Assembly: GCF_000423905.1 (NCBI RefSeq)
Contig: NZ_AUIW01000004.1
Span: 62,001 to 126,000 of the forward strand
Direction of reading: 5' to 3'
DNA from: Thermus antranikianii DSM 12462
GTDB lineage: Bacteria; Deinococcota; Deinococci; Deinococcales; Thermaceae
DNA length: 64,000 nt
The notes below the pieces were generated by a model. It saw nothing but the letters and a program-made list of their open reading frames with translations, searched no databases and was not told the origin of the DNA. This document shows, in pieces, positions 58,989 through 63,241 of this stretch (position 1 is its first letter; every line of letters starts with the position of its first letter). The translations under genes and the position numbers were made by a program.

Positions 58989-59771
58989 GTGTTGCACAAG
59001 GCGTTACGCCTCTACACCCAGGCCCATGTGCCCTTCTTCGCCGCTGCCTTGGCCTACTACGCCCTTCTTTCCCTCATGCCCCTTCTCTTTCTCCTGGTGG
59101 GGGTCTTTGGCCTTTTCCTCTCGGGAAGCGAGGCTCTGAGAGAGGGTTTTTTGGAGGGAGTGGAAACCTTGGCCGAGGGTCTTTTCCCGGCCCGGCCCGA
59201 GCTGGTCCAGGACCTTCTCCGCTTCCTCACCCGGGGGGCCTTTCCCCTCACCCTGGTGAGCGCCCTCTTCCTCCTTTGGTCGGGAAGCAATTTCTTCGCC
59301 GCCCTAAGCTACGCCCTGGGGCTCATCTTTGGCCGTCCCCCGGGTTTTCGCCACCGCCTTTTGGGCCTCCTCATGCCGATGGTCTTGGGCCTTGCCCTCA
59401 TTCTCCTTGCCCTTTTGGGCTTGGTCCTGGGGTTTCTCCTCCGCTTCCTTCCCCCGGAGTGGCGGGGGGCCTTGGGGCCCCTGGAGGCTTTTTTACCCCT
59501 CTTCCTGGCCTTTTTGCTCTTTCTCCTCACCTACGCCTTTTTCCGCGGTCTCAAAGGGTTTCGCCACCTGGTGCCCTTGAGCGTGGGGGCAGGGGTGGCG
59601 GCCCTTCTCTTCGAGGGGGTGCGGCTTGGGCTTCCCAAGCTCCTTCCCCGCTCCCAGTACGAGCTTCTCTACGGCCCCCTGGCGGGGTTTGTCCTGGCGC
59701 TACTCGGCCTATACCTCGTGCTTTGGGTCTTCCTCCTGGGGGCGGTGGTGGCGAGGGCGGTGGAGGACTAG
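58989..59771 (+). CDS. YihY/BrkB family membrane protein
   Basis: 260 residues with six predicted helices, with the family beginning HVPFFAAALAYYALLSLMPLLFLLVGVFGLF, SNFFAALSYALGLIFGRP and the C-terminal QYELLYGPLAGFVLALLGLYLVLWVFLLGAVVARAVED. The former name RNase BN for this family is obsolete; the function is unknown. GTG 58989 follows AAGGGGAG. Probably cotranscribed with proBA (54-nt gap). GTGG (59759-) and CCAC before six T may terminate it just before the leuS promoter. Confidence 0.85.
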   Translation: MLHKALRLYTQAHVPFFAAALAYYALLSLMPLLFLLVGVFGLFLSGSEALREGFLEGVETLAEGLFPARPELVQDLLRFLTRGAFPLTLVSALFLLWSGSNFFAALSYALGLIFGRPPGFRHRLLGLLMPMVLGLALILLALLGLVLGFLLRFLPPEWRGALGPLEAFLPLFLAFLLFLLTYAFFRGLKGFRHLVPLSVGAGVAALLFEGVRLGLPKLLPRSQYELLYGPLAGFVLALLGLYLVLWVFLLGAVVARAVED

Positions 59772-59801
59772 GGTGCCCCACGCTTTTTTGCCGGGTTGCA
59801 G

Positions 59802-59807
59802 TATCAT
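59802..59807 (+). promoter_or_regulatory. -10 box of the leuS leader
   Basis: TATCAT, 6 nt before the ATG of a short reading frame, as for a leaderless transcript. No clear -35 at 16-18 bp; an upstream T6 run (59784-59789) lies in the spacer area. Confidence 0.5.
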
Positions 59808-59813
59808 GTTCCC

Positions 59814-59840
59814 ATGAGTCCGGCCAGGCTAATCCCCTAA
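59814..59840 (+). CDS. Predicted leuS leader peptide (8 codons)
   Basis: ATG-AGT-CCG-GCC-AGG-CTA-ATC then CCC-TAA, encoding MSPARLIP. The single leucine is CTA, which appears to be a seldom-used leucine codon in this GC-rich genome. The codons lie inside the left arm of the first leader hairpin, so ribosome position would decide the fold. No ribosome-binding site, but TATCAT ends 6 nt upstream. Coding is predicted from context only. Confidence 0.5.
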
Positions 59841-59889
59841 AGCGGGAAGGGGCCTGGCCGTCCCCTTCCCCTTGGGGAAGGGGTTTTTT
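59821..59889 (+). terminator. Attenuator of leuS: mutually exclusive antiterminator and terminator hairpins
   Basis: Hairpin 1 pairs CGGCCAGG (59821-59828) with CCTGGCCG (59853-59860), and CCCCT (59834-59838) with AGGGG (59848-59852). The antiterminator pairs GGGAAGGGG (59844-59852) with CCCCTTCCC (59862-59870). The terminator pairs CCCCTTCCC (59862-59870) with GGGAAGGGG (59875-59883) around CTTG and ends in T6 (59884-59889). The last two share 59862-59870. The SD GGGAGGAGG follows at 59890. Confidence 0.8.
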
Positions 59890-59904
59890 GGGAGGAGGCC
59901 CGGC

Positions 59905-62518
<2,614 letters not shown>

Positions 62519-62541
<23 letters not shown>

Positions 62542-63241
62542 GGAAGAGAAGCCGGGTGGGTACCACCCTGGCCACCTCCTCCCCCACGGGGGTGAGGAAA
62601 AGCCCCTCGTCCCCCGCCCAGGCTAGAAGCCGCCCGTAGCCCAGGAGGAACCCTTCCTCGTCCAGGAGCCCGTAAAGCCGGTGGGGCTCGGGGGGCACCA
62701 TAAGGTATGCGGGCACGCGACCGAGGGGAAGGGGGCGGGGCCTGGCCCCCTGGAAGTGGGCAAAAAGCCTTTCCAGGCGGTTTTTCCGCCTCTCGGCCGG
62801 GGTTTTCCTGCGGACCCCCTGAAGGGGCGGGGCCAGGCGCGCCCTTAGGTCCTTGCGCCAGGAAAGGGCCTGGTAAAGTTCCTCCCACCCCAGGACCAGG
62901 ACCTCGGCGGGCACCAGGGCCTCTATCTGTAAGAGCCGAAACCCGGGGTCCAGGTAGCCATCCGTGTCGGCTACGGTGGGGCTTCCTTTGGGGATGAGGC
63001 GGGCTAAGCGCAGGGCCCCCACCACCGCCTGCGCCTCCATCCCTCTAGGGGACAGGGCCCCCAGAAGGTAGCGGCGTAGGGGGGTGAGGGTTCCTTCCCG
63101 GTAGTGGAAGAGGGTGAAGGCCCCGGGCAGGGCTCCCTGCCCCGGGTCCAGGTCCAGGAGGTAGGCTTCCTTGGCCTTTTCCAGAAGCCTTAAGGCCAGG
63201 GTGGACTTGCCGGTATCCGTGGGGCCAGCCAGGAGGAGCAT
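62519..63241 (-). CDS. Clp1/Grc3-type polynucleotide 5'-hydroxyl kinase
   Basis: 240 residues. The P-loop [15 protein letters not shown] (Walker [10 protein letters not shown], 6-14) and [15 protein letters not shown] resemble the Clp1/Grc3 family P-loop (GPxDTGKST and DxDxGQ). A later [33 protein letters not shown] fits the family's lid region. It would transfer the gamma phosphate of ATP to 5'-OH ends of RNA or DNA. Its 3' end overlaps leuS by 23 nt on the opposite strand. TAGTTT ends 8 nt before ATG 63241. Confidence 0.8.

Follow-up and report, generated by a model that had tools for sequence, protein, structure and literature searches.

A probable leaderless leader-peptide attenuator with one rare leucine codon before leuS in Thermus and its relatives

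The leu attenuator of E. coli and Salmonella (leuL) has a conventional translation start, and the E. coli pheST attenuator has a leader, pheM, with several Phe codons and a Shine-Dalgarno start. Leader-peptide attenuation of the Thermus thermophilus lysine biosynthesis cluster was reportedly demonstrated by experiment by Tsubouchi et al. in 2005 (J Biol Chem). Streptomyces leuS has a leaderless leucine leader peptide, LeuL2 (MRAVRLLLSEPR), described in a paper whose list includes a Trp leader that has a single Trp codon (PMC8079986); the Streptomyces leuS leader had been predicted earlier (PMC1262725). Two or more control codons are described as typical of such leaders, and the response is predicted to be weaker where the fraction of these codons is small (PMC1183508). 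Replacement of CUA by CUG lowers the sensitivity of the Salmonella leu leader (study cited in PMC1183508). T-boxes precede the ile and gly tRNA ligases of Deinococcus radiodurans (PMC2494555). The main text of Naville and Gautheret (PMC2965389) makes no mention of Thermus, Deinococcus or leuS. In the literature searched, outside which subscription papers lay, we found neither a description of a leuS leader in Thermus or its relatives nor a published experiment on it or on its leucine response. The attenuation principle is known, but the widely conserved minimal leuS version reported here seems undescribed.

The leader lies in a window of Thermus antranikianii DNA, by which we mean the whole 64-kb stretch analyzed (64,000 nucleotides). 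Its parts are given in Table 1. It is highly likely to be a ribosome-mediated transcription attenuator that uses a leaderless leader peptide with a single rare Leu codon, and its CTA frame very probably serves to detect a lack of charged tRNA-Leu and to switch leuS on. A preliminary description had proposed attenuation, a reading supported by the anatomy, the conservation, the CTA codon and the spacing set out below. Re-checking the sequence confirmed each element given there (the TATCAT box, ATG 59814 and its frame, CTA, the hairpins and the T6 run). Exactly 6 nt separate the end of TATCAT from the leader ATG, and the Thermus leader promoter shows no clear -35 box. The leader ATG is without a Shine-Dalgarno sequence; a good one precedes leuS. 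CTA is on the 5' side of hairpin 1, where the two stem parts join, and its C and U are also paired in the predicted minimum-energy fold. The antiterminator and terminator have the arm 59862-59870 in common and are thus mutually exclusive pairings, which are kept in Thermus and related genera.

Table 1. Coordinates of the proposed leuS attenuator and of leuS in the 64-kb window
Feature	Position	Strand	Basis or remark
-10-like box TATCAT, leuS leader promoter	59802-59807	+	sequence
Leaderless-looking 8-codon leader frame MSPARLIP-stop	59814-59840	+	ATG at 59814; TAA at 59838-59840
Control codon CTA (Leu, codon 6), sole Leu codon	59829-59831	+	invariant in 25/25 Thermus 8-codon leaders
Hairpin 1 (1:2), overall span	59821-59860	+	outer + inner stem
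Hairpin 1 outer stem	CGGCCAGG 59821-59828 / CCTGGCCG 59853-59860	+	sequence
Hairpin 1 inner stem	CCCCT 59834-59838 / AGGGG 59848-59852	+	sequence
Antiterminator (2:3), 9 bp	GGGAAGGGG 59844-59852 / CCCCTTCCC 59862-59870	+	span 59844-59870
Intrinsic terminator (3:4), 9 bp	59862-59870 / 59875-59883, then TTTTTT 59884-59889	+	
Shine-Dalgarno-like GGGAGGAGG of leuS	59890-59898	+	SD-like motif before leuS in 27/27 Thermus genomes
leuS, leucyl-tRNA synthetase	59905-62541	+	ATG 59905; Pfam PF13603, PF00133, PF14795, PF08264

When both strands of the window were searched for the layout of a -10 box, 6 nt, a start, a frame of 4-30 codons and a terminator, the leuS leader was the sole match, and no second copy of the leader was found in its own genome. 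The Pfam domains of leuS include LeuRS editing and LeuRS-specific domains. Convergent with leuS is a gene at window 62522-63241 (minus strand) with a CLP1-type P-loop domain (PF16575, 5e-14), which is unusual for a bacterium and seems to adjoin leuS in other Thermus genomes too.

In the attenuation that we propose, transcription would start at the A of ATG 59814 or beside it, and a ribosome would load on the leaderless start and read MSPARLIP. When too little charged tRNA-Leu is available to read CUA, the ribosome would wait with CTA in its A site and cover the RNA to about 59841-59843, disrupting hairpin 1 and leaving GGGAAGGGG (59844-59852) free. This arm would pair with CCCCTTCCC (59862-59870) once the latter is made, no terminator would form, and leuS would be transcribed. 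With adequate charging the ribosome would reach the stop codon and cover most of the antiterminator arm, or would leave and allow hairpin 1 to form; in either case the terminator could form and transcription would stop at the T run. The choice of CUA fits selective-charging theory and the Salmonella leu leader experiment (PMC1183508). Given that a small fraction of control codons predicts a weaker response, the single CTA of the Thermus leader may give a modest range, which is the main uncertainty.

Some 20 further genera of the class have a like layout before leuS: a -10 box, 6-9 nt, ATG or GTG, a short CTA frame and, in most cases, a terminator. The Thermus family has a leaderless-looking CTA frame in all five genera (47 of the 49 genomes examined), and nearly all its non-Thermus leaders also have 6 nt between the -10 box and the start. 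The frame is present in 7/7 genomes of genera g12 and g13 of family f4, in 2 and 3 examined genomes of families f2 and f3, respectively, and in about 13/25 genomes of family f5. A leader before leuS was missing in genus g14 of family f4 (0/4 genomes), in 2/17 genomes of genus g4 and in about half of family f5, so the leader is not essential. The plasmid collection gave leuS coding matches only, and a scan of genome contigs for named Thermus relatives gave only distant LeuS of other phyla.

CTA occurs in each of the 58 distinct leader frames before leuS and accounts for 76 of their 609 codons and 76 of their 103 Leu codons; at 7.18 per 1000, the usage in the 64-kb window, 4.4 would be expected in 609 codons. 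For 55 of the 58 frames the source was an automatic filter blind to CTA, which asks for a -10 box, 4-9 nt, a start and 4-30 codons, with one start chosen by hand where it offered several (L143, L144 and L169); the other three frames were added by eye (L168, L173 and L181). One filter match without CTA (L047) was left out, as no terminator follows it. The terminator search returned nothing in L044, L149 and L172. The single Leu codon, pointed out in the preliminary description as a weakness, proved to be constant across the genus, in which CTA never varies, and other genera have one to three CTA codons.

The frame could be translated and attenuate leuS while the pause at CTA senses general translation speed or ribosome supply and not leucine. 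This would suit the presence of only one control codon in Thermus and the place of CTA among the rarer codons (7.2 per 1000), but still rarer codons (TTA, CGA, ATA, ACA and others) were not chosen, and a Leu codon stands before the gene for a Leu enzyme across the class. We consider a general sensor of this kind improbable.

Some further features were seen around leuS in other genomes. Three genus g4 genomes have a tRNA-Leu(UAA) gene directly upstream of leuS (L058, L166 and L168), and in L166 and L168 it is directly upstream of the leader too. In genus g4, a second -10-like box (CAATACAAT, AATAGAAT) lies between the terminator and the leuS start in L054, L057, L060-L062, L164 and L167; it is possibly a promoter that bypasses the attenuator. 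Two genomes have two leuS-like copies each, G083 (C1:4107527 and C1:414024) and G109 (C211 and C70), and one of the G083 copies is apparently shortened (residues 2-499).

The strongest single argument for attenuation, one that the preliminary description did not include, is the constant spacing between CTA and the antiterminator arm. For each leader we took the best terminator and the best helix competing for its 5' arm, sought from the frame start so that CTA gives no bias. Measured from the first CTA, the arm begins at 13.8 ± 1.15 nt in 49 distinct leaders of the Thermus family and of f4; measured from the start codon its spread is ± 2.0, and from the stop codon ± 3.8. With 15 lineage representatives the distance is 13.7 ± 1.0 nt, with spreads of ± 2.1 relative to the ATG and ± 4.2 relative to the stop; in 20000 draws, codons picked at random from these frames never gave a spread as small. 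Families f2, f3 and f5, whose antiterminators are mostly long-looped and were read from folds only, were left out of this statistic. In two leaders (L055 and L056) the arm starts inside the frame, 16 nt before the end of the stop codon, and the first CTA is still 14 nt before the arm. The 5' end of the arm is 15 nt after the first base of CTA in the T. antranikianii leader. Beyond the codon that it is translating, a bacterial ribosome shields about 12 nt of RNA (PMC4833913), which would put the edge of a ribosome stalled at CTA near +14; the antiterminator arm appears to be placed at this edge. The constant spacing bears out the ribosome geometry that had been put forward for this leader.

Predicted folds are consistent with this geometry. 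The leader has a fold z-score of -3.3 against shuffled sequence, and 2 of 200 shuffles were equally good. Energies of the three alternative folds, whose computation the preliminary description had suggested, are -23.0 (hairpin 1), -17.1 (antiterminator) and -18.0 kcal/mol (terminator) at 37 C, the latter two thus near -17 to -18 kcal/mol, and -12.0, -8.3 and -9.0 kcal/mol, respectively, at 70 C. The fold predicted without a ribosome has hairpin 1 and the terminator, so an untranslated leader is expected to terminate. When the RNA is masked to 59841 and the 3' half of the terminator is not yet made, the remaining RNA folds as the antiterminator. When it is masked to 59850, there is no antiterminator and the terminator is the only strong fold. 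Together with the spacing, these masked folds suggest that a ribosome at the control codon would free the antiterminator arm. Once the 3' half is present, the terminator conformer is slightly more stable even with masking to 59841, and read-through must therefore rest on the antiterminator forming first.

Using LeuS as the query, we fetched the region upstream of leuS from 27 Thermus genomes. The alignment called for earlier held in all 27 for the frame, CTA and the terminator, and in only 25 for hairpin 1. All 27 leaders have a TANNNT -10 box with exactly 6 nt between its end and the start codon. The start is ATG or GTG, the frame is kept at near-constant length, and the stop codon at its fixed place is TAA in 13, TAG in 8 and TGA in 6. 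Swaps of start and stop codons that leave their positions unchanged directly indicate translation, and with the kept frame they form the coding signature of a short translated frame. Shine-Dalgarno-like letters occur before the leader start in 9/27 leaders; by inspection they are the AGGA inside the -10 box itself. In the 25 leaders with eight codons, no change is seen in codon 5 (AGG) or codon 6 (CTA) and next to none in codon 4; codons 2, 3 and 7 vary, with GCC, ATC, ACC, GTC, AAC, CAC and TGC all found at codon 7 beside CTA. AGG and GCC sit in hairpin 1, so their constancy can be structural.

Two Thermus genomes (L022 and L032) have rebuilt 7-codon leaders (GTG CGC GCG TCC CTA CGT CCC TAG) that lack GGCCAGG/CCTGGCC and have lost hairpin 1; CTA is kept, 13 nt before the antiterminator arm. 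Hairpin 1 or ribosome cover had been proposed earlier as the route to termination; hairpin 1 is dispensable, and cover of the antiterminator arm by the ribosome is thus the more general route. In every Thermus genome the top match of a covariance model of the leader is the site before leuS, which scores 80-103 bits, or 32 bits in the two genomes without hairpin 1; matches elsewhere are chance-like (22-32 bits, at most about 32). In 22 Thermus leaders 99.2% of the cells of hairpin 1 are paired, with changes of the wobble kind only, and 97.7% of those of the antiterminator are paired in Thermus leaders. No compensatory pairs were found inside Thermus in hairpin 1 or the antiterminator, helices too conserved there to decide by covariation, so the argument rests on the codon, the spacing and the comparison across genera.

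A protein such as LeuRS might bind the leader RNA and control termination (autogenous control, as in E. coli thrS), with the frame incidental; in favor of this, the GGCCAGG/CCTGGCC hairpin is nearly invariant in 25/27 Thermus leaders. The stop swaps at a fixed place and the ATG/GTG swaps speak for translation instead; moreover, hairpin 1 is lost in two leaders, and its sequence is not kept in other genera, where CTA is. Protein binding in place of attenuation by a ribosome is very unlikely.

We also considered whether the terminator merely ends the upstream gene, with leuS transcribed from its own promoter and not regulated. The upstream gene is BrkB-like, on the same strand, and ends about 30 bases before the -10 box. 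However, the promoter-like box lies between this gene and the terminator, which puts the terminator in the leuS transcript, and both leader and terminator are still present next to a different upstream sequence (L021-L023, L044-L052); a plain terminator is extremely unlikely. It is hardly credible that the nascent peptide itself (ARLxP, the peptide end in 25/27 Thermus leaders) stalls the ribosome, with or without a small ligand, because the AR codons overlap hairpin 1, which explains their conservation, and because peptides across the class differ widely (MIWAGLART, MTRTGLPPA, MRFVKRLALT and MQWFIHLELP with 2 CTA each, MKFAGRLLELPGGPC with 3 CTA, MIASALENRGDRD and MPVATNLLQLGGPRR) and only CTA and the spacing stay.

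The leuS leader is unusual in being minimal, apparently leaderless and class-wide. The chances seem evenly balanced that it is an ancestral attenuator of the whole class, among the smallest amino-acid attenuators known, which works near 70 C with a single rare CUA, one tRNA-Leu isoacceptor, a leaderless start 15 nt from CTA and a fixed ruler of 13-15 nt for stall and arm. The leader points to leader-peptide attenuation of an essential enzyme of tRNA charging throughout a class that lies outside the groups usually described. As a natural system of very small size, it could show whether a useful response needs more than one rare codon, and by what means ribosome and polymerase are kept in step after a leaderless start. 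In the comparison of lineages the ribosome footprint becomes a visible evolutionary ruler.

Among known systems, no Rfam family matched the leuS leader (L001) at its gathering score, and no T-box was found in 59000-60500 at E up to 1. DUF1874 was rejected as a leader family, as a chance match (22 bits against a cut-off of 42). The ileS gene of the same genome has a T-box leader (RF00230, L004 2114-2351, minus strand, 92.8 bits against a gathering score of 93). T-boxes likewise couple transcription of aminoacyl-tRNA synthetase genes to tRNA charging, but have no leader peptide, as the leuS leader does; the leuS attenuator would stand beside T-box control of ileS, giving one genome two different charging sensors.

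The T. thermophilus lysine attenuator shares leader-peptide attenuation and the genus, and differs in its amino acid, its biosynthetic genes and its tandem Lys codons. Before a homocitrate-synthase-like gene (G000:C33:98964) we found a frame, MLALEKKLGRRGVG, with AAA AAA and a terminator (L184, reverse strand), a leader that presumably resembles this known lysine attenuator. Another frame, MRFGLILSLGLVLIVGPAGGGV, with three CTA codons and a terminator, lies within the 150 bases before an ilvB-like gene (L187, G000:C2:110585) and is probably a branched-chain leader peptide. Streptomyces LeuL2 has the same target, leuS, and a leaderless short frame with Leu codons, a hairpin and a U tract; it belongs to another phylum and has three Leu residues in a row, where Thermus has one CTA, so that the likeness is one of layout. 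The leuL attenuator of E. coli and Salmonella also has CUA as its Leu control codon and 1:2, 2:3 and 3:4 alternative pairings, but it serves a biosynthetic operon and has several CUA codons (three were replaced in the Salmonella study cited in PMC1183508). E. coli pheST is likewise an aminoacyl-tRNA synthetase gene under leader-peptide attenuation, with several Phe codons and a Shine-Dalgarno start against one Leu codon and an apparently leaderless start in Thermus. By analogy, the best reading is that the leuS leader works like the attenuation of E. coli leu and pheST.
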